Shown here: piece after piece, positions 20,988 to 38,962 of the stretch
Layout of the letters: each line of letters starts with the position of its first letter
Position numbering within the stretch: the first letter of the stretch is position 1
NCBI RefSeq assembly: GCF_029637605.1
Contig: NZ_CP121261.1
Span: 806,001-870,000, forward strand
Reading direction: 5' to 3'
Length of the DNA: 64,000 nt
Source: Achromobacter spanius
GTDB taxonomy: Bacteria > Pseudomonadota > Gammaproteobacteria > Burkholderiales > Burkholderiaceae_B
The notes under the pieces: generated by a model
What the model was told of the DNA's origin: nothing
Databases searched by the model: none
The model's input: only the letters and a program-made list of their open reading frames with translations
Translations under genes and position numbers: made by a program

Positions 20988-21073
20988 GACCCGGCAAGGT
21001 CATGACGATCTACCGCGTGTGTCCTAACAGGAGCGTAGAGGTGTGTCGTGGGCATCCATGGATAGGAGGCAGT

Positions 21074-22894
21074 GTGGCGATAAACATCGTAGATGTGGAA
21101 GAGGTGCTGCGCCGGCAGTCGCATCGTCTGACGCTCGTGAGCTTGGAAGCCCTGAATCCAGCACGCGAGCCCTACAGGGCAATCTTGCTTCAGCCAACCG
21201 GCATGGTCGAGGCCAATGATGTCCGAGTTGGCCACGCAGACGCAGCCCAGGGGCACGCCTTATGCAGTGGATTTCTTTTGTCCGCGGCACAGAGCCATTC
21301 GGACTTGGCAGTAGCACCTGAGTATTGTGTCCCTTGGTCAGTCGTACAAGAAATCGTAGCGGGGCACTATCGGCCCCCACAAGGTGCGATATGGGTGCTC
21401 GGATGCGAAAGCATCTCTCCGACGGATTTCCAACAATTGGCTAAACAGTACAACGCGGCTGGAGAGTGCGTTTTTCACTATGAGCCAATCAACCCACGGC
21501 AAGCAGTACAACGGCGCTATGTCGACCCGCTGCTCTACGTCTTCTGGACTCGAAACCAGCAGGGGCAGCCTGTGTTGTTCCTTCTCGCGCAACTCAAGAC
21601 TGTGGCCTGCCGGGACTACCGGGACGTGGAGCAAACCTCACTGTGCCTCGGCGAGACGGTATACGCCTTCAACCGCGGCATCAACTCTTTGAGTCTAGTT
21701 TCAATTATTTGCTCCGATGCTTTTGACTTCGTTGAGCACATTGACGCGGTCCATACCAACTGCCTTCTAATTCATATTCAACTCAATCCGAAGCCGGCAC
21801 ATACCGACTATGCGGCCTACCGAACCAGGCTGTGTTCAGTGGGAACCAACAGTCACGTCGAACTGCTCTGCCTGAATTGGGCGAAGAGCATCCAAGAAGT
21901 GAAGGGGGCAGGCAAGTATGCAGATTGGAATAATGTCGCCGGATCGGCTTGGTATGCACCGCCCGCGAAATTCAGCGCTGATGATGGGCTCATCGATTCG
22001 CTACACCGGGATGGTCTTTATTACTGCTTGCTGGCCCAACGATGGCACTCGTTCTTCCTGAACTACGAAGGCCAGATTATTCAGTTGCAAAAGCAGAAGC
22101 TCTATTTTCCCGGCGAGCAAGCGCTGGCCCCGAAGAATTTCGTTGCAGTGGAAGATCGCTGGTCGTGGAACCCAGGCAGCAAGAGTTGGGATCCTGGCGC
22201 GATTGCGAATGACGGCTTTGCCGAAGCTCTAACCGGTTATCAGGCGATTGCGGAACACCTCCACTCAGCTTCACAGACCAGTCCACTCGCGGTCGAACGC
22301 GCGATCGAGATTCTCATGGGACCTCGCGGAAACCCTGCATCCTGGTACACAGTCAAGGAGCTTGATGCGGTCCATCTGGACAAGGATGAGGAATCCATAC
22401 GCCGGGTGACAGTCCACCAAGACCCAGACCTCACTCGGCCGGGATCGTCGTACCGTCTGCAAAGATTGCAACGTGCGCACGATGCTATCGGACTTGCCCA
22501 AAACGATGTTCCGTGGCCACCGCCGGTGCAGGATTTGGCGAAGGGCTTTACGCTCTCGTGGAAACGTGTTTCCCCGCACCATAATGTCGAACCGACCACC
22601 GGTGGGCGCGGGCCTGCAGCACTTGTCTACCTTTCGGACCAGGCGAACAACTCAGCGGTCGAAAGCACGCACCAGAAGCTTAGGCAGGCCATCATCTCTC
22701 ATGCTGCCAATGAGGCCTGTGAAGCAGGCAAGAACGGAGAAGAACTAAGCGACGCCATAGTGCGTGCTCAAGACCGGCTTTGCGTGGTGTTCCGGCGTGA
22801 CAACCGCTTTGGCGCACGCGGGCCCGAAGGCACGAATCTCATCGACACTCCCGCCAGCGCATCACCGGTAGACTTCTCAGAGGACAGATCATGA
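21074..22894 (+). CDS. Nitrilase-fold (carbon-nitrogen hydrolase-like) protein of a putative defence operon
   Basis: 606 residues. The first 230 residues carry the three catalytic positions of the nitrilase superfamily in order: Glu83 in APEY, Lys175 in AQLKT and Cys213 in IICSDAF, following a typical first strand RAILLQPTG. The remaining 370 residues (WNPGSKSW, the RLQRAHDAIG segment) match nothing I know. The GTG at 21074 is chosen because AGGAGG lies four bases before it; an ATG at 21002 has a poor site. The stop overlaps the next gene's ATG by four bases, so translation of the two is coupled. Nitrilases cut or form C-N bonds of amides and nitriles; here the substrate is unknown. Lower GC than the flanking chromosome. 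Confidence 0.72.
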   Translation: MAINIVDVEEVLRRQSHRLTLVSLEALNPAREPYRAILLQPTGMVEANDVRVGHADAAQGHALCSGFLLSAAQSHSDLAVAPEYCVPWSVVQEIVAGHYRPPQGAIWVLGCESISPTDFQQLAKQYNAAGECVFHYEPINPRQAVQRRYVDPLLYVFWTRNQQGQPVLFLLAQLKTVACRDYRDVEQTSLCLGETVYAFNRGINSLSLVSIICSDAFDFVEHIDAVHTNCLLIHIQLNPKPAHTDYAAYRTRLCSVGTNSHVELLCLNWAKSIQEVKGAGKYADWNNVAGSAWYAPPAKFSADDGLIDSLHRDGLYYCLLAQRWHSFFLNYEGQIIQLQKQKLYFPGEQALAPKNFVAVEDRWSWNPGSKSWDPGAIANDGFAEALTGYQAIAEHLHSASQTSPLAVERAIEILMGPRGNPASWYTVKELDAVHLDKDEESIRRVTVHQDPDLTRPGSSYRLQRLQRAHDAIGLAQNDVPWPPPVQDLAKGFTLSWKRVSPHHNVEPTTGGRGPAALVYLSDQANNSAVESTHQKLRQAIISHAANEACEAGKNGEELSDAIVRAQDRLCVVFRRDNRFGARGPEGTNLIDTPASASPVDFSEDRS

Positions 22895-25800
22895 TCAATG
22901 CGCAACGCGTTGAAGCGCTGCTCAAGGACCGCTACCCGGATCTTGAAAGTGTTAGCCGGGGCGTGTTTCGAGGCGTTGACCGCTTCGGCGCTCGCGACTA
23001 CGCGATTCGCTACTTCGACCTGAACGATCGGCTAGCAACGACTGCCAATTCGTTGAGGAGCTATCAGGAACAAGTTCTCTCGCCAATGTACTTTTCCAGC
23101 GACGTTGCGACCGATTTGCGCTGGAATCATTACCTGTACTTCATCACCAGCGACGACGAAGCCGATAGGAGCGAATTCAGCCGCCTTAAGGCAAAGGTGG
23201 AGGCAGACCGAGAATACGCGCGTAAGCATGTTGTGCGAGAAGGCGAGATTGCCAGTTGGCTTGCTAACGCACAAGCGCTTGAGCCTCCGAGATCTCTGCC
23301 GATAGACCTTGCTACATCATGGTCAAACACTTTGGAACAGCACGGCCTTTCCTTCATTTTGGATAACGACATTACCGTTCCTGAAGCTGTTCGGAGAATC
23401 GTTGCAGGAGCGAAGGATAAAGCGTTACGTCCAATTTCGCCTGTGTCTCTACTAGCTGCCGAACGGGCAGCTGCAAGTTGCTTCATCGAGCACTTGACCA
23501 TCAAAGGCTTCCGCACGCATCCCGAGGAAAAGGAACACCTGCTAGGTCGAGTAAATCTGATTGTCGGCAGCAATGGGGTCGGCAAGACTTCACTGCTTGA
23601 AGCAATTGAGTTTGCGTACTGCGGAAAAAATCGCCGATCGTCCCCCCTGCTCGACAGTACGTCGATAACTTTGGACCTTCTCGGCGTCGGTGACAAGCTG
23701 TCTTCGACCACTGATTCCGGGCGACTTCGCGCGCGTCACTCAAACTGGTATGCCAAAGCCGAACTGAAGGCCATCACCATCCAGGACAGTTTCGGAAAGT
23801 TTAACTTTCTCGACACTGATGCTGCGGTGGATCTCAGCGTATCGGCAAGTTCGGAACAAATTGGAACGGACGTCACCCGTTTGGTGTTGGGTGCGACGGC
23901 AGAAAGTCTGGCGGACAGGCTGCGCCGGGTTCTCAAGCAGTTGCAGGACGAGCTGAAGGGTCTGCGGCGCGACAGAGAAAGCAATCGTCAAATGAAGGTG
24001 GCCGCTCAGATTCGCGTTGATGCCATCAAGGCTGCCCCAAAGTTATCCGACAGCTTGTTCCTCGAACTTCTCGTGGCTCTGAGGGGCCAGGGATGGAGTC
24101 AGCCTCCAGAAGAAAAGAGTCAACTCGAATTTTTGCGACAACGTCTCCAGGAGGCTACTTCTGCAATTGCACTGGTCCGACATGCGTCAATCAACGTGCT
24201 TCACTCCGAGCCCGAATCGGCGCTTCGACTATTGACGAACCTGAACGACGAAGCCGGCAAGGCCGAAGACCTGGATCAGCGGGCCAAAGCGGCCCGGTTG
24301 GCACAGGTCAATGCACGCCGCGAGGCGCAGGCAGCAGCGGCACTAAGTGCCGCTACGGAGGCGCTTATTCCCTATGCACGCACCAACTTTCCGCAACTTG
24401 TCAAGAAAGCATCGGAGTGTCGGGATAGAGTCCGCACGTGGACCACAAGGCTGAGCCCAGTCCCCGACCTCAGCGATACGAGCGCAATTCAGGAGTTTCT
24501 GGGAACGCCCGTCATAGACGCCATTGACTCAGTCGAGTCAGATATCGGCACGCATCAGCGTCGGCTCGAAGCCGCGCAAACTTCACTCCAAGCTCTGGAA
24601 AAGACACAGAGCACGATGACAGTTCTGAGGCAGCGCCTACTGGGAGCCGCGCAGGACATCCTGCAGCGGTCGGCCATGCCCGACCAGTGCCCTTTGTGCA
24701 GAACCGAGTTCGAGGAAGGTCAGTTGGTTGCGCGAATGATGGCCGATGTCGAGGTCGGTGCATCTGAACAAGCCAGCCTGCTTCAGGCAGAAATATCGTC
24801 GGCAAGCGAAGCGATAGTGAACGCTCGCGCAGTGATGGCCACGTTGCACCCACTGCGTGAGTTTTTCGGAAACGGTGCGCTGACCATCACGGTTGCCAAG
24901 GCGTTCGAACAGGTCAAGGAAGAACGAACTGCATTTGAGCGTGATCGACAGGAGCTGGACACAATCCATGCTCAGGCTCGGCAGTTGCAGTCCGATGGAC
25001 TTTCCTCCGAAGACCTTTCCAGCAAGTTATTAAATGCAGGCATGGCGGAGTTGCCCCTGTATGAGGAGTTGCAACGAATCCAGTCGAATCACAAACAGAG
25101 GCTGGAAATACTGCAACGCGCTGAAAAGACCGCCGTTCATGAGTCGGAGGTTGTGAGGCAGGAATGCGATGCGATGGCCGAACGCCTGTCGATTGAGGCG
25201 CTCGGAGATACTGACAACCTCGCTAAATTAGTCAAAGGGCTGATCTCAGATGCAGAAGCTGCTTTGGGAGCACGACAGATTCTTGCTTCAATCATGACAA
25301 TCAGCACGGAGAAGACCGCAGAAGAAATCGCGCTCAACCTCGCCAATATCCAGCAATTGCTCGCTCAGGTCACTACGGGCCTAGCGCAGGAGGTTTCGAA
25401 CGACAAGGCTCTCAACGACGAGACCGGGAATGTCGATAAACTCGCCAAGAAGATCGAAGGCAGCGACGCGAAGATCACGCGCGCGAGCGACACAGAGCGA
25501 GTGCTGGCTACGCTAGCCGAACAAAGCTCGGGAGGTGAGTTGGCCAACCAGATCCTAACCGAGAACGCAGCAGAGATTGCTCGCACGTTTGCGAGCATCC
25601 ACATGCCCAACGAGTTTGAGATTCAGATCGCTCAAGGAAAACTCGTCATCATTCGCAGAAGCACTGGCGCAGAGGTCCAACTCGACCATATGAGCACAGG
25701 GCAGCGTGCCGCGTTCGCCCTGTCGCTGTTCTTGGCGATGAATGGCCGCCTCCGGTCAGGTCCTCCGGTATTGCTCTTTGATGATCCCGTTGCGCACATC

Positions 25801-25971
25801 GATGACATAAACATGCTGTCCTTCCTTGATCATCTTCGCCAGCTTGTCATCGGCGGGTCGAGGCAAATATTCTTCGCTACGGCGGACACCAAGCTTGCCG
25901 GGCTTTTTCGTCACAAGTTCCGTTTCTTGGGCGATGAATTCAAGGAGTTGCGTTTATCGCGTACCTCGTAA
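22891..25971 (+). CDS. Rad50/SMC-like ATPase with zinc hook and a distinct N-terminal domain
   Basis: 1026 residues. Residues 1-195 form a separate domain (DYAIRYFDLND, RWNHYLYFITSDD, EADREYARKHVVREGEI) that looks like modules fused or linked to ATPases of three-component conflict systems, though I cannot prove it. The ATPase head starts at FIEHLTIKGFRTH with Walker A GSNGVGKT at 226-233. Coiled coil fills the middle, broken by a CPLC zinc hook at 600-603. The signature STGQR is at 935-939 and Walker B VLLFDDP at 960-966, then HIDD. Such proteins dimerise on DNA ends or tether DNA. It overlaps the nitrilase-like gene by four bases and precedes a nuclease gene. Confidence 0.85.
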   Translation: MINAQRVEALLKDRYPDLESVSRGVFRGVDRFGARDYAIRYFDLNDRLATTANSLRSYQEQVLSPMYFSSDVATDLRWNHYLYFITSDDEADRSEFSRLKAKVEADREYARKHVVREGEIASWLANAQALEPPRSLPIDLATSWSNTLEQHGLSFILDNDITVPEAVRRIVAGAKDKALRPISPVSLLAAERAAASCFIEHLTIKGFRTHPEEKEHLLGRVNLIVGSNGVGKTSLLEAIEFAYCGKNRRSSPLLDSTSITLDLLGVGDKLSSTTDSGRLRARHSNWYAKAELKAITIQDSFGKFNFLDTDAAVDLSVSASSEQIGTDVTRLVLGATAESLADRLRRVLKQLQDELKGLRRDRESNRQMKVAAQIRVDAIKAAPKLSDSLFLELLVALRGQGWSQPPEEKSQLEFLRQRLQEATSAIALVRHASINVLHSEPESALRLLTNLNDEAGKAEDLDQRAKAARLAQVNARREAQAAAALSAATEALIPYARTNFPQLVKKASECRDRVRTWTTRLSPVPDLSDTSAIQEFLGTPVIDAIDSVESDIGTHQRRLEAAQTSLQALEKTQSTMTVLRQRLLGAAQDILQRSAMPDQCPLCRTEFEEGQLVARMMADVEVGASEQASLLQAEISSASEAIVNARAVMATLHPLREFFGNGALTITVAKAFEQVKEERTAFERDRQELDTIHAQARQLQSDGLSSEDLSSKLLNAGMAELPLYEELQRIQSNHKQRLEILQRAEKTAVHESEVVRQECDAMAERLSIEALGDTDNLAKLVKGLISDAEAALGARQILASIMTISTEKTAEEIALNLANIQQLLAQVTTGLAQEVSNDKALNDETGNVDKLAKKIEGSDAKITRASDTERVLATLAEQSSGGELANQILTENAAEIARTFASIHMPNEFEIQIAQGKLVIIRRSTGAEVQLDHMSTGQRAAFALSLFLAMNGRLRSGPPVLLFDDPVAHIDDINMLSFLDHLRQLVIGGSRQIFFATADTKLAGLFRHKFRFLGDEFKELRLSRTS

Positions 25972-26106
25972 CAAGTGCCGTTTTATGGACCAAATCAGTT
26001 CACGCAGCGATTATCCCGGTCTGACATGTAAGGCGCCTCCCACTGCCCCTAGATTGAGCGACGGGAAATTATGCAAGAATTCCCGCTATAAAAAAGGATC
26101 ACTTCC
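25972..26106 (+). promoter_or_regulatory. Spacer with interrupted palindrome before the nuclease gene
   Basis: CGGGAA (26062-26067) and TTCCCG (26080-26085) form an inverted repeat with a 12-base centre, ending 21 bases before the ATG. It may be an operator or a leader hairpin that sets the nuclease level apart from the two upstream genes. The 135-base gap is long compared with the four-base overlap before it. Confidence 0.4.
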
Positions 26107-27630
26107 ATGCAAGAGCGCATCGCAAGGCTGAAGACCTATCAGGACGCGTGCCAAATGGCTAAAAACGCGGAGTCGCTGGGTCGACCTGACGTTGCGGCCG
26201 CCGCACTGGCGCGAGCGGCTGAACTTCGAGCGATAGAGGACGGATTCATCACTCCCGCCGAACAGGCAATCGCCGCGGCAGTGTACGCATATGAGGATCG
26301 GCAGAGCGAATTGACTGGACGCGATAACTACAAAGCTAATCGCACTTGGCCAATGTTGCGCAAGAACGGCAGTCCTGTCCGTGCGGTCGAAGAGCTCATT
26401 ATCCATCGTCGACCGACTCCCGGCTACGAGGTCCTTGCGCAAGCCAATCTGAAACATCACAGTTTCGAAGCCGTCATTCTTCGGTTCCCCGGCGAGTTTT
26501 CAGAAGACGCGGTAGTCGCTGCGAGGGCTAGGCTCAGTGAAGGTCGTGAGGCTTTTCCCGAGGCCGCAGCGGAGCCGGTACGGCGTCGCACTCATCCGGT
26601 GTTGGACGCCGAGGCGCAAGCATTCCTGCATGGATTCAACACGTCCACGAATTGGTGTCGAAATGATTGGTTGCCGCGCTACCGAGAGAGTTTGGCGATC
26701 GTGCAGAACGCGCGATCAGACGGACGGCCTGCTGATGTCTTTGAACTGCTCTGGAAGAAGCAGGATAATTCGATAAGCCACGCAGGCCTAGGCCTCTTGA
26801 AGTCCGATGTCGTCGACGATCTCCGCGATGAACTCATCGTGATAACGGCGGACATTTTCAACGATGGCCGCCCCAATCAGCATCACGCTGTCGTGAAGCG
26901 GTTCGAAGCGTGGCGGGTTCAAGGGCGGATAAGCATGGTGCCTCGCCTGCTAATTGCTAGGGTATTTGCTGCTATTCATCCTGACCTCTATCACACCACC
27001 GTGGACAACAGTAGTCACGATGAAGTACTGATATGGTTCAAGCGGCATACAGGATTCGTTTACAAGACGGCGAACAGCTGGGCGGAGAAGGCGCATGCGC
27101 TGGTTGTCCACCTCGACGAGTTCAAAGTCTTTGGCAAGGACCTATTAGCGCGAAATATCTTTCCGTGGTTTGTCATTGATCAATTGCGGGCGGGTGATCC
27201 GGGGCGTGTTCGGCCAGGCCACAGGCCTCGTGCGGAGTCTTCATTTGCGTATCTTCCTGCGCAAGAAAGGGAAATTGCGCTGCGACACAATGCCCTCTTA
27301 ACGAAACTTTATGCGCAGTTGGTCGAGGAATATGGGGAACCACAAGTCTTCACGGAATATCCGACCGGAACAGGCGGTTACGCTGATGCTGTTGTTCGTT
27401 TCCCCGATGGACAAAGCTTCGTGTACGAACTGAAAATTGCGCCAACTGCCTCATTGGTGGTCCGCCAGGCGATGGGCCAATTGCTGGATTACGGATATCG
27501 GGGCGAAGGCTTAAAGCCCAAGGGCCTGTTCGCCGTCGGAGAACCCATTCTGGACTCAGGAATGCAAACCTATCTTGAGCGACTGCGTAGTCAGTTCGGC
27601 TTGAACATCCAGTACCTTCAGGTCTCATGA
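26107..27630 (+). CDS. PD-(D/E)XK nuclease-domain protein of the same putative operon
   Basis: 507 residues. The C-terminus has the restriction-endonuclease-fold pattern: Asp427 in GGYADAVV, then Glu441-Leu-Lys443 in VYELKIA, followed by VVRQAMGQLLDYGY, a helix common after this core. The middle (VPRLLIARVFAAIHPDLYHTTVDN, then LIWFKRHTGF) resembles the part that precedes effector domains in McrBC-like restriction proteins; the N-terminal 170 residues are helical and unrecognised. AAGGA lies about ten bases before the ATG. The gene follows the SMC-like ATPase by 135 bases, so it is the likely DNA-cutting effector. The family call rests on short motifs. Confidence 0.7.
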   Translation: MQERIARLKTYQDACQMAKNAESLGRPDVAAAALARAAELRAIEDGFITPAEQAIAAAVYAYEDRQSELTGRDNYKANRTWPMLRKNGSPVRAVEELIIHRRPTPGYEVLAQANLKHHSFEAVILRFPGEFSEDAVVAARARLSEGREAFPEAAAEPVRRRTHPVLDAEAQAFLHGFNTSTNWCRNDWLPRYRESLAIVQNARSDGRPADVFELLWKKQDNSISHAGLGLLKSDVVDDLRDELIVITADIFNDGRPNQHHAVVKRFEAWRVQGRISMVPRLLIARVFAAIHPDLYHTTVDNSSHDEVLIWFKRHTGFVYKTANSWAEKAHALVVHLDEFKVFGKDLLARNIFPWFVIDQLRAGDPGRVRPGHRPRAESSFAYLPAQEREIALRHNALLTKLYAQLVEEYGEPQVFTEYPTGTGGYADAVVRFPDGQSFVYELKIAPTASLVVRQAMGQLLDYGYRGEGLKPKGLFAVGEPILDSGMQTYLERLRSQFGLNIQYLQVS

Positions 27631-27717: not shown

Positions 27718-28105
27718 TCGCATCGACACGGATCACCGCAGCCACTCACGTAGCCACGCCACGCAGGCGCCCGCCTCGCTCTCCGACCACTGCACCGTTG
27801 CTTGCACGGGACCGCGCGACAAGCGGATCTCGATATGGCGACCCGCTGCGGGTACCGCCGACAGCGCGACTGGCACGAATGCCGGCGTCGTGCCGTCCTG
27901 CTGCTCGGCTTGACGGATCCACTTATGCACCAGGTTCGCATTCACGCCGTGCGCCAGCGCCACCCCGGCGATGGATATCCCCGGCTGCCAGCACTCGGCC
28001 ACAATCCGAGACTTTAGCGCCCTCGGATAAGACCGGCGCTTAGGTACCTGTGCTAATTCTGTCTTCGACATGGTGTCCACCTAAAAGTGGTGGACACTAT
28101 CGAGG
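27718..28105 (-). mobile_element. IS66-family remnant (tnpA end only)
   Basis: The left part of an IS66-type element: a complete tnpA, then the first few codons of tnpB (a GTG start reading IRVDAM, overlapping the tnpA end), after which the sequence departs near 27718. tnpB and tnpC and the other end are missing. Upstream of tnpA, TGTCCACC and GGTGGACA form a near-terminal palindrome (28071-28096) that may be the element tip. It sits just downstream of the nuclease gene, an 87-base gap from its stop. Confidence 0.65.
27733..28080 (-). CDS. tnpA: IS66-family accessory protein TnpA
   Basis: 115 residues. The N-terminal helix-turn-helix (YPRALKSRIVAECWQPGISIAGVALAHGVNANLVHKWIRQAE) and the C-terminal strand segment ending CVAWLREWLR are those of IS66 TnpA, a DNA-binding helper of the transposase. 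Without tnpB and tnpC it cannot move by itself. The first ATG (28078-28080) and a second one three codons later are both possible. Confidence 0.78.
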   Translation of the reverse strand: MDTMSKTELAQVPKRRSYPRALKSRIVAECWQPGISIAGVALAHGVNANLVHKWIRQAEQQDGTTPAFVPVALSAVPAAGRHIEIRLSRGPVQATVQWSESEAGACVAWLREWLR

Positions 28106-28287: not shown

Positions 28288-29535
28288 CTACCAAGCCATG
28301 TCCGCAGCCTGCTCGAACCGACGAGTCACGCCGTCGACGAAACTGAGCATGTCCTCCTCGGACTGCAAAGCGCGTGCGTAGGTACCATCAGCCGCGTACG
28401 ACAGAATGCTAGGAAGGACACTGAAGAGATAGTGCCTTGCGGGCGCCAGTGCTCCCGCCCATAGGTGGTCAAGAAACGAACCGATCTCCGTTATCGCCGA
28501 CGCCTCATCGAAGGCGACGCGGCCTGTGAAGCTAACTTGATGGTCTCGGTCGTTGGTCAGTAGAACGGAAACGGAGCCCGCACCCGAGTGGAAACGAAAC
28601 GCTTGGCCCTCTTTGCCGAACGCCCCGTGAGCCACGAAGTTCCTTACCTGTGCACGAAGATCCAAGAGCTTGTCGTAGTGCGCTTTGGTGTCTTTATCCG
28701 AGATGTCGAGTGCGGCCTTGAATTTCGCATTCCAGTTGCCCTCGGCGAGCTCTGCAACTTGCGTGCCCACGGTCAGCTTTCCCTGAAGTATCGCGAGATG
28801 AATAAACGCATGCTCAGTCCAACTGAAGAAAGCTTCGATGGCAGCCAGCGCATACCAGTTCACTTGCTTGCTAACGGACAACCACGATGAGATGAGCTCG
28901 AAGTTGAACGTCCCCGGAAATTCGCTTCCTCTGTCCTTCGCCTTACTTGCCAGCTCATTGCTTTCAACGACCTGTGCGTTGAACTGGTCGCGAAAAAACT
29001 CGTAGCGTTCGAACAGATCAGAGTTTTTGTTGACGACGTTCAGATCTGATGTCGCAATTGCTTGGTGTGCACGCCACTGGAAGTATGGGGCCGCAACTGA
29101 GACGGCCTTTTTGATCGCTTCGACAATAGCGGTCGCGTCCTTCTCGCCTTGCTGACTTGGCCGAGCGCTCATTCTCGCGTTGGGGTCGAGATTCGGTTCG
29201 AAGACGCCGAGCCCCATCTTTCGATGCTCTATGCCGTACAGGCGACCGCGGAACCTGACGGGTACCGTCCACGCGGTCTTTTCCCATTGACCAAGCCTCG
29301 GGAACTTGAGTAGATCAACGAGAAGAAAATAGACAAGGTAGTTGGGCGGAAGGCCTCGACCAGCCTCTGTTCGCGCCGACAACATCAGCCCGCGTCCTTC
29401 CTCAGGCGAACGCGGAGGCCCGGCGGGCTCCAGCTCTTGGAGTGCGGCTCGTGCCATGTCGCTCATATTTGCAGGCAGTTCCGGTGCAGCGATCGTCTTT
29501 CTGGCTTTCACGCCTATTCCCTTTTCTTGAGCCAC
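28288..29535 (-). CDS. Protein with HEPN-type RX4H motif
   Basis: 415 residues, mostly helical, no signal peptide. The stretch LLDLRAQVRNFVAHGAFG carries R298-N-F-V-A-H303, the RX4H motif of HEPN RNases, preceded by long helices as in that fold (QVNWYALAAIEAFFSWTEHAFIHLAIL). HEPN proteins often serve as RNA-cutting toxins in defence and toxin-antitoxin systems. The start is a GTG at 29535 with only AGG upstream, so it may be wrong. It follows the Avs-like gene on the same strand after 283 bases. The motif is short, so a different helical role is possible. Confidence 0.55.
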   Translation of the reverse strand: MAQEKGIGVKARKTIAAPELPANMSDMARAALQELEPAGPPRSPEEGRGLMLSARTEAGRGLPPNYLVYFLLVDLLKFPRLGQWEKTAWTVPVRFRGRLYGIEHRKMGLGVFEPNLDPNARMSARPSQQGEKDATAIVEAIKKAVSVAAPYFQWRAHQAIATSDLNVVNKNSDLFERYEFFRDQFNAQVVESNELASKAKDRGSEFPGTFNFELISSWLSVSKQVNWYALAAIEAFFSWTEHAFIHLAILQGKLTVGTQVAELAEGNWNAKFKAALDISDKDTKAHYDKLLDLRAQVRNFVAHGAFGKEGQAFRFHSGAGSVSVLLTNDRDHQVSFTGRVAFDEASAITEIGSFLDHLWAGALAPARHYLFSVLPSILSYAADGTYARALQSEEDMLSFVDGVTRRFEQAADMAW

Positions 29536-29817: not shown

Positions 29818-32800
29818 CTAGCTTGTAGCTTTTCCCCAAGGACCAATTCCCTCAATGATCGTCCGACCTAAAAATTTCCTATCTAGCTGGTTCTCGTGCT
29901 TTTTAATTGCAGATTTCAAGTTGCTTGCATTGTAATTGGCATGTGCCAAACGACTCTGGAGAGTGGGAGCGAACTCATCGAGTTCATCTGTTTCCAATCT
30001 CATCCAGCCATACGCCCGCCGATCTGCTGATTCCATGAAGAGAATCCACGCTGCGAATGCATGTTCATCGCTCTCTGATTTCCAGTAAGAGCTCCACCAA
30101 TAGCGCGCGCAGGCTTCTTTGTGTCGCCATTGTGCTGCTTCATTTCTTCGTGATATTTGAAGAGTCTCTTCTGGCCCCTGAGGCCAAACATCGAGAAGCG
30201 GATTCCCGCTTTTGAAGCCATACAGTTTTTGCGCTCGTTGACGCCGCCAGACCACCCCAGAAGATTCGTCAGTCTGAATGATACGATCTAGCCACGCTTC
30301 TTTGCCGTTCATGCTGGCTGCAATCGCTACCTCAAATAGTTGCTGATCGTTACTAGCATTATCCACCACCTCCTTAAGCAGCCTTTCAACTTCTTCCGAT
30401 TCAGGTACGCGAAAGAGCATTTGAGTCATTTCTTCAATTTGAGCTTCCCCAACGAAACGAGTTATCAGAGCCTCACTCAGGGCCCGCCACAACATCGCCC
30501 CTTGTTTAGGCGATGCAATAAGCAGAGCTTCGCACAGCGCAAGATAGAGACCTTCGGCCAAGCGCACGCGCCGCTTGAAGTCGGCCGTAGCCTCACTCGC
30601 TCCCTCAATCCAAAGATCCACAGCTGTGGGCACGTGTTCGATGATTGGTACAAGGTCATCGGGTTCTAGATCGTGAAGGTACAGGGTCGCGCCAGCTTGG
30701 TGTGCGGTCCTAATCCGCTCAAGGGCCGTATCGACGGCACGACGTCGATCCGCAAGTTGTTTCTCAGCATCCATTGCATCTCGTAGCTCCTCGAGTGGAT
30801 CATGAGTAGCCGGTTTAGGGGTCAACGAGATGGAGAATGGGTACTGCTTGCGATGCTCTCTATTAATGGAAAGGTAGGAGCCGGGGTCAGGGACCTGGAT
30901 CTGGGGCGTATGAAGAAGTCCCCCAACAATCTCAACTGCCTGGTGCGCGTCAGCAGCAGAAGCTCCTCTAATCTTAACTGCCTTGAACAACAGCCAAGGT
31001 GCTACTGACGAAGCGATTTGATCGAAAGGAAGTCCTTTGGTAGCAGCAATTAATGCTAGAGACCCAAAATGGTTCTTCTCGACGACTTCGTCGGCCTGCC
31101 ATTGCCAGTCAGCATTTACCAGCACTCGTCCAAAGCGCTCATCGTCGGTGGTTGCCAGCAGCTTGAATACCTCAGTTTGGGATTTGAACTCAGGATCAAA
31201 GCCCAAAGGTTCCAACCACTGCCATGTACGGTCACCAATTTCTCTGGAGATGTACAACAGAAGAGAGATTAAATCTTCGATTTGCTTGGTCGTTCCACCA
31301 GCGTATCGATCAACTAATGCATCCGTTTCATCCGCAGTCAATGGTTTCATGACCTCCGCGAAGTCTCGGAAATGAACCGGTAAATCGGCTTCAATGACCG
31401 CAGTTACTTGCGCCAGAGCTGAAAGTTGTTGAATCTCCGTTAACAACAGCTGACTCGCCACTGTTGCCTCATGTTCATCATTGAGCTCTTGAGATTTCAG
31501 TCGCGTAACGCGTGCTGATCCAGCGCACGCATCATCTACCAATAGCAGCTGCTCGGTGATTCCGATGGCGTTCGCTAAACGCTGTTCAGGCGGCCGGTTG
31601 GCAAAGCCGACTATTTTTGTGCGTAACAGATGAGCAAGCAGATCTGGAGCACACCGTGCAAGCACAGGAGCCAGGGAGCTGAACGCATGATCCTCAACTG
31701 TTTGCAAGCGGCTGGTATCGAGAGTGCTGACCTCGATATCCTGGCAATCCTTTCGCAGCGCCTCGATAAACGATGGTGGGGGAGCGAATTCTGGATCCAG
31801 CCAGAACGCTTTGGTGCGGTCAATTTTTCGCCGGAGTGAAAGGCTCGCATCGAGCAACACTTGCTCTGCATGACGGCGTTCTAGCTTAAATATGCTTCGG
31901 CCAGGATCATTTGCATAATCGGCGTCGTAGGAAAACGACTGATCCAGAGCTGGATTTTGCTGTACTGCAGCTGCCTCGTTATCCTCGTCACCAGAAAGCC
32001 ACAACAAGAGGGCAGCAACCCGTAAGGGAAGCTCTGGATGGATACCATGCTCTGGAACTCTGGCTGCTATTTGCCCAGACTTTAATCTCAGCCCTTTCGC
32101 GGTTTCGGTGAAGTCTTCGTTATTCAGCAGACAAAGCCATTTCAAGCCGTCCCAAAAGTCGCAGCGCCCCCGGAGTGCCAGTACCAATGCAGCAACCTCA
32201 AAGACCGGCACAACCGAGACCAGGGGAAATCCTTCAAGCAACGAAGGAATGGTGCGTAGCACCTCATCAGATCGTCGTTCCACAAGAAAAATCTGGTTCC
32301 CGAGCACAGTGCATGGGCCATCGATGTCGACTCCTAACCGTTTCATGAAACGCGCTGACCGCGCCTTTTCAGAGTCCTCATGACGTTGTGCCGGATGATC
32401 GACATCACGGGACACGGTTCTGAGCCAGGTAATGACGTGGCTGATGATCGTTGAAAGCGCCGTGGTATCGCTTCTTGGGATTGCGCGAAGCGCATTCACG
32501 GCCCAGACCCTTGCAGACCTTTGTGCTCCCTCACCTTGAAGCGCGACGGTATCAAGCAACGGATCGGGGATGGCAACAGCAATACGAGTGAGCTCGGTAC
32601 GGTGTTCATCTGGAATGTTCTGCGACCGTAGCCACTCAGAAACCAAGCTCGACGCCACGGCTGACGCGGTAGCACTATCCCGCTCAATCATGATTGAAAC
32701 TGCTGCACGAAGAATTTCTGCGCGCTCATCTAGGCCAGAAATAGGATCAAGCCACTCAGCGAACTGAAGATCAGCCTTATCGCGATCCGTAATGCCAAGC

Positions 32801-34476
32801 TCATCCATATGGCTAAGGAGAGCTGCTCCCAGCGCATGAGCCACAAGCGTCGATGAGAGTTCAAGCTGGCCTGGCGCTTTCGTGATTGCGAACCGAGTAT
32901 CTATTATGTCGCTCAGCCGAAGAAACACTTGATTGCTGGAAAGGTCTGCCCGCTCCGTCGTCTCGCCAAGACTCCGCATGCTGTACCTTCGGATGCCATC
33001 GATGTGTAGCTGTGCTACTTCCTGCAACCAGGAACGCCACTCATCCTCGCTGAAAGACTTTCCTGCACGAGCTCCAAGCGTGTCGCGACCATACTCCCAG
33101 AGCAAACGATGCACCGTGACTTGCCCCGGGTCGGTGAGCCGCTTGTGAAATCGAATAACAAGACTAAAGAGCCGCGGGGTTCTGGCGAATTTAACAAGAT
33201 CCTCATGAAGATCTGCACGAGTCAGCCCCTCCGCAGCTAGACGCTGATCTAGTTCGCCGCCAGGTAGGTCATCGTAAATATCGACAGTAATTTCATTTGG
33301 TCGAACAACGAGACCTCGAAGGGATCCTAACCGCTCCTTCATGTGTAAATTTCGGGTCGTCACGATAACTCGCACCCGACCAGCGAAGGGCTCATCTTGT
33401 AGATAGCGCAGAATCTCAATCCAAGGGGCTGATGGTTCCTGATTCAAGCCATCGAAAAAGATCGTGAGAACCGGCCCCTCCTCGATAGGACGACATAGCA
33501 GTCGATCCAATCTCTTCCGCCAATGCGCCAGATCTCGTACCTGCGTCAACTCATAAAATCGGGCTGCAATCAGATCTTTTAGGGATGCTTGCGAGACAGC
33601 GTTGAAACCAGCCACTGAACCCGAAGGCACAACCAGAACGATAGGAAGGTCGCTACTGCGATCCGTAAGCCAGTCGAGGGTCGCCCATGTTTTTCCGACT
33701 CCCTCCCAGCCCACTACAGCAGCAGGTGCTTCAGTCGTATCTCTGCCAGACCACCAGTGGGTCAGCGCTGCGAAGCTGCTCGCTCGCCTGATCGTAGTTG
33801 AATAGTGACCGCCCGCTGTGTCCTGCCCAAGGACTGCCGCAGATGCGAAAGGTTTAGTCCACAGCTTTTTCAGATGGTGTATCGACAGCGAGCGCAAGCG
33901 TTCGAAGCCCAGATGCCAACTTTCAAGATCGCGAGTGAGTGACGCCAAAACGGCTGCACCATCCACCTGCAGCTCGCGTGCGAGATTTTCGGCTTCAGTC
34001 GAGACAAACGTTCCGAGGACCTCGGGATCCGCAGTGCAGAGTGCGGCCAATGCAGGGAATGAATTCGGTTTCCAATCAATAACGATGATGGGAACCCCAA
34101 TCTGATCACTCTTGCTCAAGAGCGCCATTTCGAGCTGCTCGGGGGCCGCACGAGTAGCGACAAGAAACCATCCTTCCAGCGAGGGATCACGCGACAGAGC
34201 GTCATCGACCTCTCCTTGCAGCTCTCGGTCACTCAGACTCGTTGTGTCTCCGTAGCGCTTAGTCTCAATTCGAAAGCGACGCCCTTGACGCCCAGCAGGG
34301 CCAGCATCGCCCCCAGATTGAAAGCCCGATTTGGCGACCCCGATCCCGACCTGGGTGAGCGAACTAATCAATGCCGCAGCTAATTTCTCCAACTGGGCGG
34401 GATTAATTTCATCCTGAAGGATCTCTTTCAAACGCATCAAACGGTCTTCGAGAGTAAGGGGTGGAGTTTTAGTCAT
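29818..34476 (-). CDS. Avs-like STAND NTPase with N-terminal PD-(D/E)XK nuclease domain
   Basis: 1552 residues. Residues 40-140 look like a PD-(D/E)XK nuclease: Asp57 in GGDAG, then Glu71-Thr-Lys73 in FRIETKRY. A STAND NTPase follows: Walker A GWEGVGKT (256-263), Walker B VLTIFFDGLNQ with Asp342, and a sensor-1 VIVTTRN near 370-376. The last 1000 residues are helical repeats, the usual place for target sensing. This order and size match AVAST (Avs) proteins, which bind a phage protein and then cut DNA. The ATG at 34476 (GGAG ten bases upstream) is preferred to codons further up. GC is clearly lower than in the flanking chromosome. The Avs subclass cannot be fixed from motifs. Confidence 0.72.
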   Translation of the reverse strand: MTKTPPLTLEDRLMRLKEILQDEINPAQLEKLAAALISSLTQVGIGVAKSGFQSGGDAGPAGRQGRRFRIETKRYGDTTSLSDRELQGEVDDALSRDPSLEGWFLVATRAAPEQLEMALLSKSDQIGVPIIVIDWKPNSFPALAALCTADPEVLGTFVSTEAENLARELQVDGAAVLASLTRDLESWHLGFERLRSLSIHHLKKLWTKPFASAAVLGQDTAGGHYSTTIRRASSFAALTHWWSGRDTTEAPAAVVGWEGVGKTWATLDWLTDRSSDLPIVLVVPSGSVAGFNAVSQASLKDLIAARFYELTQVRDLAHWRKRLDRLLCRPIEEGPVLTIFFDGLNQEPSAPWIEILRYLQDEPFAGRVRVIVTTRNLHMKERLGSLRGLVVRPNEITVDIYDDLPGGELDQRLAAEGLTRADLHEDLVKFARTPRLFSLVIRFHKRLTDPGQVTVHRLLWEYGRDTLGARAGKSFSEDEWRSWLQEVAQLHIDGIRRYSMRSLGETTERADLSSNQVFLRLSDIIDTRFAITKAPGQLELSSTLVAHALGAALLSHMDELGITDRDKADLQFAEWLDPISGLDERAEILRAAVSIMIERDSATASAVASSLVSEWLRSQNIPDEHRTELTRIAVAIPDPLLDTVALQGEGAQRSARVWAVNALRAIPRSDTTALSTIISHVITWLRTVSRDVDHPAQRHEDSEKARSARFMKRLGVDIDGPCTVLGNQIFLVERRSDEVLRTIPSLLEGFPLVSVVPVFEVAALVLALRGRCDFWDGLKWLCLLNNEDFTETAKGLRLKSGQIAARVPEHGIHPELPLRVAALLLWLSGDEDNEAAAVQQNPALDQSFSYDADYANDPGRSIFKLERRHAEQVLLDASLSLRRKIDRTKAFWLDPEFAPPPSFIEALRKDCQDIEVSTLDTSRLQTVEDHAFSSLAPVLARCAPDLLAHLLRTKIVGFANRPPEQRLANAIGITEQLLLVDDACAGSARVTRLKSQELNDEHEATVASQLLLTEIQQLSALAQVTAVIEADLPVHFRDFAEVMKPLTADETDALVDRYAGGTTKQIEDLISLLLYISREIGDRTWQWLEPLGFDPEFKSQTEVFKLLATTDDERFGRVLVNADWQWQADEVVEKNHFGSLALIAATKGLPFDQIASSVAPWLLFKAVKIRGASAADAHQAVEIVGGLLHTPQIQVPDPGSYLSINREHRKQYPFSISLTPKPATHDPLEELRDAMDAEKQLADRRRAVDTALERIRTAHQAGATLYLHDLEPDDLVPIIEHVPTAVDLWIEGASEATADFKRRVRLAEGLYLALCEALLIASPKQGAMLWRALSEALITRFVGEAQIEEMTQMLFRVPESEEVERLLKEVVDNASNDQQLFEVAIAASMNGKEAWLDRIIQTDESSGVVWRRQRAQKLYGFKSGNPLLDVWPQGPEETLQISRRNEAAQWRHKEACARYWWSSYWKSESDEHAFAAWILFMESADRRAYGWMRLETDELDEFAPTLQSRLAHANYNASNLKSAIKKHENQLDRKFLGRTIIEGIGPWGKATS

Positions 34477-34737
34477 CAGGTGATTGCTCCAATTGCATAT
34501 ATTCAAACGGGGTCTGCAGCGCCATCGAGCCCATCTCAGCGGAGTTGCGGCAGGAAGGGATAAATAATCCGCCAAAAAGCGATTTATCAAGATTCAGTTT
34601 AGATAGGCGTAGGGGAAGCTTATACACCACCCGATGTCTCCGGGCAGCCAAGTATGTGAGGTGCCCCAACCTACGTGAGCATGTTCACGCCCACTTTTGG
34701 CCAGTGTGGAGTCTGACGTATGTGAGTAGCAGCTCCT
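34477..34737. other. Gap between the Avs-like gene and IS1182
   Basis: About 260 bases with no recognisable gene. It should hold the minus-strand promoter of the Avs-like gene. TGGAGTCTGAC at 34707-34717 matches half of the family A repeat and may be a worn copy cut by the IS insertion. Confidence 0.4.
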
Positions 34738-38296: not shown

Positions 38297-38962
38297 ATGA
38301 TAGAAGCCACCGTGACCGAACCCACCGCCATTGAAGTTTCAGGTGAAGCCGCATCTCATAAGGGCAAATTTTTCCTGATCGACGCCAGCTTCTTGGGAAA
38401 CGGCAGGGTTCCGGGCATAGAAATCGCCAACGAACAGAAGCTGATCGATCCGGGGATGAATGTCGTCTCGCGTCCTAATGGAATGCCAGATCAGTATCCG
38501 GAGCGTCCGCACCTGGTTCATGTACCGGAGAAGGGCGGAATGCCACGCGATCTGGAAGAGCTCGCTGGCATATGGATTGTGTCGGAGCCGTTGAAGCAAC
38601 TGTTTGAGCAATTGGACGCCGAGGCGTTTGCATTTGTGGCATGCGACTTCAGCCTTGCTGACGGCAGCTCCGCCCCTCAATACTACCTAGGCAATGTGCT
38701 GCGCACACTCGATGCCCTGGATGAAGCCGCTTCTCGCGTGAGGATCAAGCTCAGCCACAATTATCAGACCGGCGAGGACGAGAAGCTTTATAGCCTCGTT
38801 GGCGGAGCCAGCTTGGTGTTCAATCAGGATGTTGTGGGAGGTGCCCATATCTTCCGCCAGGATCGCATGGGAGGACCTCCCATCTGCGACCGCGCGATGT
38901 TTGATGCATTGAGTGCGGCCAACTTCTCCGGCGTACGGCTGCGCGATGTAGCCGATATTTAG
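38297..38962 (+). CDS. Imm11-family (DUF1629-like) immunity protein
   Basis: 221 residues, soluble. The run IWIVSEPLKQLFEQLDAEAFAFVACDF, YYLGNVLRTLDALDEAAS and, near the end, AHIFRQDRMGGPPICDRAMFDALSAANFSGVRLRDV follows the order of blocks in the Imm11/DUF1629 family, where the C-terminal part (F-R then a dispensable sensor-like helix and G-x-x-F/L) is the most constant. These proteins neutralise partner toxins or survive as orphans. It comes 197 bases after the DUF2185 gene. The ATG at 38297 lacks a clear ribosome site. Confidence 0.68.
   Translation: MIEATVTEPTAIEVSGEAASHKGKFFLIDASFLGNGRVPGIEIANEQKLIDPGMNVVSRPNGMPDQYPERPHLVHVPEKGGMPRDLEELAGIWIVSEPLKQLFEQLDAEAFAFVACDFSLADGSSAPQYYLGNVLRTLDALDEAASRVRIKLSHNYQTGEDEKLYSLVGGASLVFNQDVVGGAHIFRQDRMGGPPICDRAMFDALSAANFSGVRLRDVADI

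Follow-up and report, generated by a model that had tools for sequence, protein, structure and literature searches.

Among the described systems, those closest to the element considered here, a pair of overlapping genes designated N and S within a 64,000-nucleotide stretch of Achromobacter spanius DNA (contig NZ_CP121261.1, positions 806,001 to 870,000; the whole stretch is called the window), are the Lamassu or ABC-3C systems and the systems that use nitrilase domains. LmuB of Lamassu is described as sensing DNA ends or DNA structures (PMC12904381), and LmuA is freed and then tetramerized upon activation (PMC12409362 addendum; PMC12799240). A “C-N hydrolase” is named among the LmuA effectors of Lamassu/ABC-3C, and the exchange of the Walker B Glu for Gln is ascribed to LmuB “generally” and not as a defining trait (PMC10586767). 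Nitrilase domains are used by DRT1 and by a reverse transcriptase (RT)-nitrilase system (PMC13275509, PMC9122126). The monomer of the DRT1 nitrilase protein was neither protective nor toxic and tetramer formation rendered activity; ATP, GTP, or NAD+ were suggested as substrates, the actual substrate was stated to be unknown, and nitrilases were described as not common in antiphage defense (PMC13275509). A first-pass annotation of the window had known of no named system that includes a nitrilase-like protein, which is only partly right, since C-N hydrolase LmuA effectors, DRT1, and the RT-nitrilase system are known. The C-N hydrolase entry reportedly goes back to two studies, one by Millman et al. 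and one by Krishnan et al.

N and S probably act as an antiphage system, and quite likely they make up a mobile immune module of two genes that resembles Lamassu/ABC-3C, with the nitrilase N as effector and S as sensor. This reading is based on the pairing of both genes at all 14 loci, on LmuB as the best match of S, on the nitrilase tetrad and profile similarity of N, on the sporadic spread of the pair, and on the defense genes in its neighborhood. The first-pass annotation had also assigned a defense role to the locus and a sensor role to the ATPase, which are graded here as probable and likely, respectively. Its ATG overlap from N to S was found as a 4-base ATGA at 22891, and GTG was taken as the start codon of N because AGGAGG is located 4 nt upstream and the aligned relatives begin at the same place. 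The features of both genes are as follows.

21064..21069, + strand: Shine-Dalgarno-like AGGAGG, read directly, 5′ of the GTG start of N
21074..22894, + strand: N, nitrilase-like protein of 606 residues, proposed LmuA-type effector, GTG start
21173..21982, + strand: nitrilase (CN_hydrolase-like) domain, N residues ~34 to 303, from hhalign against CN_hydrolase
21320..21322, + strand: Glu83 of N, candidate nitrilase general base, in register with the nitrilase Glu
21596..21598, + strand: Lys175 of N, nitrilase Lys by motif order only, inexact in hhalign
21629..21631, + strand: Glu186 of N, candidate fourth (structural) nitrilase residue in “E..L..G,” compared by eye
21710..21712, + strand: Cys213 of N, candidate nucleophile in IICSD, in register with the nitrilase Cys
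21983..22894, + strand: C-terminal region of N, residues ~304 to 606, proposed docking domain, no Pfam family
22891..25971, + strand: S, SMC/Rad50-like ATPase of the LmuB type, 1,026 residues
22891..23475, + strand: middle-component-1-like domain fused in S, residues 1 to 195, by resemblance to the ABC-3C component
23566..23589, + strand: Walker A GSNGVGKT of S (residue 226)
24688..24699, + strand: zinc hook CPLC of S (residue 600), CPxC in 14/14 sequences
25690..25707, + strand: ABC signature MSTGQR of S (residue 934), [MV]S[TS]GQR in 14/14 sequences
25765..25788, + strand: Walker B PVLLFDDP of S (residue 959), with Asp replacing the usual catalytic Glu

N was positioned directly upstream of S and on the same strand at all 14 loci, the window and 13 others, and the start of S overlapped the end of N at 11 of these. 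Scanning a genome collection with N yielded eight relatives, each with S directly behind N, and five further pairs were found in G987, a genome of the same order, on the Polaromonas plasmid pPNAP01, and on three haloarchaeal plasmids. A plasmid search with S alone returned four records, identical to those reached with N or with an archaeal N homologue. The pairwise identities of N tracked those of S (r = 0.99); the 91 pairs behind this value are not independent of each other. A comparison of the flanking open reading frames (ORFs) revealed no other ORF that recurred at four or more of the 14 loci.

The hosts of the pair span Acidovorax, Bordetella, and Pseudomonas through to the haloarchaeal plasmids. 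The N/S proteins of Pseudomonas donghuensis share 85/79% identity with those of the window, which puts them level with Acidovorax (87/76%) and Variovorax (88/80%) and well ahead of Bordetella (72/64%) and Thauera (71/64%). As Pseudomonas belongs to a different order than these four genera, this points to horizontal transfer of N and S. Only the genome of the window itself contained the pair among 61 sampled relatives (0 of 36 congeners), among 369 genomes of the class, and among 398 of the phylum (0 of 397 others); 399 genomes of the order added a single further one (1 of 398 others). These samples overlap in part. The N-S pair is rare, sporadic, and mobile. On two haloarchaeal plasmids, related integrase genes adjoin the pair on opposite sides (L011, 7030 to 8397, − strand; L020, 11058 to 12434, + strand). 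Searches of viral and phage collections with N or S gave nothing relevant: a single match to S, L089, had no ORF like N, nitrilases, or the middle component, and by eye it looks like a phage SbcCD-like Rad50.

The spread bears on the question of whether N and S could be a DNA repair or housekeeping complex, a Rad50-like ATPase with an amidase partner, instead of a defense system. S shares the zinc hook, Walker A and B motifs, and signature with Rad50/SbcC, and Rad50 was the solved structure closest to S by sequence (3qkt, E = 5e-7). S differs from Rad50/SbcC by its N-terminal domain of the middle-component-1 kind and by its nitrilase-like partner N, and no Mre11-type partner was seen beside S, though no profile search was aimed at one. 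A sporadic element that is absent from the sampled congeners, nearly absent from the samples of the order and phylum, and present on four plasmids argues against a repair function, as do the Hachiman, type I restriction, IetS, SIR2, or McrB-like genes within about 8 kb of the pair, and this explanation is considered very unlikely.

These neighbors, all within about 8 kb, were Hachiman at L010 (as annotated), a type I restriction R subunit and an IetS-like subtilase at L009, IetS and SIR2 at L005, an McrB-like AAA protein at L007, nSTAND3 and CHAT proteins at L004, and an Mrr-type nuclease at L002. Ten hand-picked neighboring proteins were scanned, taken from six of the eight genome-collection relatives, to which L003 and L008 did not contribute; eight matched a PADLOC family at E 0.001 or better, and eight matched Pfam at 1e-4. 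At L009 (5674 to 21822), N and S and the IetS-like pair are located between the R subunit with an HsdS-like gene and an HsdM-like gene (HsdS and HsdM by eye), which looks like a defense insertion inside a restriction locus.

Profile libraries (Pfam-A, PADLOC-DB 2.0.0, and NCBIfam 20.0) assigned S to the ATPases of the zinc-hook SMC/Rad50 type, as the first-pass annotation had done (Pfam SMC_N, E = 9.7e-13), and all four of the motifs it had named were located. Among the best 25 of 88 PADLOC families, LmuB was first with 1.8e-35 and mad3 followed with 5.5e-18, a distance of 17 orders of magnitude. LmuB was likewise the top PADLOC family of the two distant S homologues scanned. The Walker B motif (residues 959 to 971) was DDP in 11 bacterial and DEP in 3 archaeal sequences, and this exchange of Asp (bacteria) against Glu (archaea) suggests that the ATPase rates may differ.

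The first ~195 residues of S resemble the ABC-3C middle component 1 (MC1), a protein usually encoded separately. Pfam MComp1 was placed on the same segment in all three bacterial lineages scanned (4.1e-4, 6.3e-4, and 0.023, all sub-cutoff). A profile of this N-terminal segment matched stand-alone proteins of the loci L071 and L088, and L088 is a bona fide ABC-3C operon (MComp1, 1e-8; CTD2, 2.8e-75). No separate middle-component gene was seen at the loci of the pair. Because of the resemblance of its N terminus to MC1, S is probably an LmuC-LmuB fusion. An AlphaFold2 model of S residues 1 to 200 (window 22891 to 23490) reached a predicted local distance difference test (pLDDT) value of 57.6, and a Foldseek search with this low-confidence model returned nothing at E 0.001 or better. 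Several of the weak matches, namely the African swine fever virus RNA polymerase chain E, TIP26, Mus81-Eme1, EcoO109I, and BamHI, have restriction-endonuclease-like folds, hinting that MC1 could be a degenerate nuclease fold; no reliance is placed on these matches. The effector of the L088 operon (G541:C100:44000-60000) has 651 residues with CTD2 at 303 to 632, and its first ~300 residues had no Pfam match, so it is another uncharacterized effector.

In the 12 stretches examined around other matches to the LmuB profile, no nitrilase-like or N-like ORF adjoined, and several of these stretches were by eye not Lamassu operons (L075 resembles a chromosomal SMC). Of the 10 matches that a longer LmuB profile produced across 180 genomes, one was the L072 gene again and one the L088 operon; the other eight started at profile positions 1 to 20, were in frames of 1,109 to 1,261 residues, and resemble chromosomal SMC proteins.

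In N, the triad Glu83-Lys175-Cys213 proposed by the first-pass annotation was present and invariant in all 14 aligned sequences, as was Glu186, which had not been named there. The surroundings of the four residues were PE, K, E..L..G, and IICSD, in this order. Seven genomes belonging to the order of the window supplied a set of 28 CN_hydrolase sequences (30 loci without L047 and L061, which were cut or partial), and these mostly showed PE, K, E, and C.(D/N/E) in the same order. When the N profile was aligned to this set with hhalign, the score was 43.1 (probability 63%, E = 6.8e-5). The controls remained below: 50 column shuffles of N did not exceed 20.6 (probability 0.61%), the reversed alignment scored 15.6, S 19.4, and the downstream protein P 14.4. 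Three divergent bacterial N sequences on their own reached a probability of 82%. Glu83 and Cys213 were in register with the nitrilase residues, and Lys175 was not exactly aligned. A plain HMMER nitrilase profile recognized only the protein of G987 among the 13 other N proteins, and weakly so (E = 0.0049). On the basis of the tetrad and the alignment score above the controls, N very likely belongs to the nitrilase superfamily, as had been claimed in the first-pass annotation. PDB sequence searches with N gave chance-level matches only, and the C-terminal regions of all six N proteins scanned had no Pfam match above the cutoff. That this region is a diverged CTD2 was not supported, as no similarity to the CTD2 of one ABC-3C effector (L088) was found.

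An enzyme of this kind may also act otherwise than by killing. As an amidohydrolase acting on derivatives of nucleotides or amino acids, N could make or destroy a small-molecule signal, or it could be a regulator that has lost catalysis; the killing would then fall to another component of the cell. In favor of this, the DRT1 authors leave open whether their nitrilase generates a toxin (PMC13275509). Against it, no partner ORF beyond N and S recurred at four or more of the 14 loci; moreover, the full tetrad in 14 of 14 sequences argues against a dead enzyme. The explanation is therefore regarded as unlikely, and N as the effector of the module is preferred.

Evaluation of the Lamassu/ABC-3C-like module needs to consider several observations that weigh against it. 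The Gln general to LmuB is absent from the Walker B motif of S. S has 1,026 residues compared to the ~650 of LmuB in a review, albeit an unfused LmuB of 1,012 residues is present in L088. The MC1 matches in S are short segments of 29 to 50 columns below the Pfam cutoff; the N-terminal profile did not match four of six stand-alone ORFs in the LmuC position, three of which (L067, L068, and L072) were called LmuC from position alone; the stand-alone proteins of L071 and L088 did not match each other in direct comparison; and the archaeal S N termini did not match MC1. With respect to N, nothing was above the Pfam cutoff, CN_hydrolase included, and nothing was found in PADLOC and NCBIfam at E 1, LmuA included. 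The archaeal N sequences on their own reached an hhalign probability of only 3.5% with the nitrilases, and an AlphaFold2 model of N from nine sequences gave no confident fold (mean pLDDT 36.9). Finally, the defense genes near the pair were counted without a random control.

In its architecture, the pair agrees with Lamassu/ABC-3C/DdmABC in an effector gene upstream of an LmuB-type, zinc-hook, SMC-like ATPase. The zinc hook is found in many but not all Lamassu members, and the middle component resembled by a domain of S is lacking in some of them. The position of N and its two-part layout fit an effector with an N-terminal enzyme and a C-terminal docking domain, and a C-N hydrolase is among the known effectors (PMC10586767); with type I Lamassu, the pair shares the number of two genes (PMC12409362). 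It differs in a middle component that seems to be part of the ATPase; in the C-terminal region of N, outside the Pfam CTD families; in the Walker B motif of S with Asp (bacteria) or Glu (archaea) and not Gln; and in N, which was matched neither by LmuA, with respect to type I those of PADLOC, nor by CN_hydrolase profiles. These last features would agree with a separate two-gene class that shares just a generic SMC/Rad50 ATPase and has no kinship to Lamassu, since N was missed by the LmuA profiles and its C terminus by the Pfam CTD families and the L088 CTD2. LmuB as best match of S by 17 orders of magnitude and the resemblance of the S N terminus to MC1 speak against such a class, which appears rather unlikely, and which overlaps with the Lamassu-like module so that the probabilities of both are not exclusive. 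The likeness to DRT1 is a nitrilase as proposed abortive-infection effector that requires oligomerization (PMC13275509). In DRT1, a single polypeptide combines the nitrilase with a reverse transcriptase (class 3 UG/Abi), in contrast to the separate SMC-like ATPase gene here, and no RT family was among the Pfam and NCBIfam matches of N, S, and P, with N having no PADLOC match.

Within the Lamassu-like module, S would be the DNA sensor, a zinc-hook LmuB-type ATPase with LmuC/MC1 fused at its N terminus, and N would occupy the LmuA position with an N-terminal nitrilase-superfamily amidohydrolase. We observed the pairing, conservation, motifs, family relationships, and sporadic distribution, and from these and the characterized systems, we infer complex formation, a DNA trigger, release, oligomerization, a substrate, and abortive infection. 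The C-terminal region of N probably docks on S, and S may keep N inactive, by analogy with characterized Lamassu systems. Contact of S with a DNA end or with a DNA structure of the phage or plasmid type would release N, which would then self-assemble, similar to Lamassu effectors upon activation and to nitrilases, which need oligomers for activity. Active N may then attack an essential amide- or amine-bearing metabolite, so that the infected cell would stop growing. Since LmuA is released and tetramerized and the DRT1 nitrilase depends on the tetramer, the release of N by S could be enough to turn the nitrilase on. That the pair represents a distinct Lamassu branch in bacteria and haloarchaea, with a middle component fused to LmuB and a nitrilase that becomes active once freed from the sensor to oligomerize, is a tentative proposal to which we give slightly less than even weight.

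The first-pass annotation had grouped a third gene with N and S.

26107..27630, + strand: P, PD-(D/E)XK-like protein of 507 residues, a neighbor judged to be outside the system and absent from the relatives of N and S

In that three-gene system, P would have been the DNA-cutting effector, with N making or removing a signal or modifying a target. The gene for P lies 135 bp behind S, on the same strand, and the proposed residues Asp427, Glu441, and Lys443 were invariant in four aligned sequences, so the D...ExK motif of PD-(D/E)XK proteins is kept. No match to P was found in Pfam and PADLOC, and one at chance level in NCBIfam; its homologue L014 matched PDDEXK_9 with 8.1e-5, just short of the cutoff. 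In the adjacency survey, N and S stood together at all 14 loci, and P accompanied them at one, in the window. A whole-genome search of the eight relatives for P, with a query that recovered the genome of the window elsewhere, found none, and P was likewise missing from the 13.7- to 19.6-kb stretches of L010, L011, L019, L020, and L021, the whole genomes of these five not having been searched for P. Around N and S in the eight relatives, neither P nor the 415-residue ORF or the STAND-like gene described below was present (E 1e-5), and an all-against-all comparison of flanking ORFs revealed no window neighbor recurring at the other 13 loci. The C-terminal module of P lives apart: neither N nor S accompanied it at L012, L014, and L015; Vibrio and Pseudoalteromonas plasmids carry the nuclease-like module by itself; and only this module was present in 1 of 199 other sampled genomes of the order, G903, where a search for N was negative. 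P was in none of the phage records, viral contigs, and 42 congeners searched. The three-gene set was rejected and is highly improbable. Its absence from the other loci indicates that P is a neighbor, which looks unrelated and not part of the system, and the likelier effector is the nitrilase and not the nuclease.

The low-GC setting noted in the first-pass annotation was recovered, with a GC content of 0.55 to 0.57 over the three genes and 0.58 to 0.70 in sections wholly outside about 20 to 36 kb. Besides N and S, this stretch also holds a large STAND-like gene (29818 to 34590, − strand) for a protein of 1,590 residues with a weak AAA match only (AAA_25, E = 0.008) and, by eye, a P-loop and an N-terminal nuclease-like stretch IETKRYGD; it is a probable Avs/STAND-type defense gene. 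Between P and this gene, a 415-residue protein (28288 to 29535, − strand) had no match in Pfam, PADLOC, and NCBIfam. A short transposase-type ORF adjoining P (27733 to 28080, − strand; HTH_Tnp_1, E = 4.2e-11) is a trace of a mobile element, and an Imm11 immunity protein (38297 to 38962, + strand; E = 4.2e-68) is encoded downstream of the low-GC stretch. Elsewhere, the genome has an ordinary three-gene ABC-3C/Lamassu operon, L066 (G000:C1:1780520-1782469), with a CTD7 effector, MC3, and LmuB (E = 1.9e-120).

Beyond the C-N hydrolase entry in PMC10586767, the papers listed in the literature searches included nothing naming the N-S pair, and nothing was returned under nitrilase with Lamassu. Because of this entry among the LmuA effectors, the kind of system is already known. 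As far as the literature searched goes, the fusion of the middle component, an effector missed by the profiles searched, and the occurrence of the pair in bacteria and haloarchaea look new, as does the unrecognized C-terminal region of N.

To understand the biological meaning, it should be considered that a nitrilase-type effector is a weapon hardly studied in bacterial immunity and that the proposed effector was missed by Pfam-A, PADLOC-DB 2.0.0, and NCBIfam 20.0. With an unrelated sensor and the nitrilase as the only recognizable enzyme, N and S offer a second route to the nitrilase substrate in defense, and they could be used to test whether effector release in Lamassu extends from nucleases to metabolic enzymes. 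If the distinct branch does exist, this would mean that nitrilases were assembled into immunity a second time, independently of the RT-linked systems, and it would join the effector release of Lamassu to an oligomer-dependent nitrilase activity.

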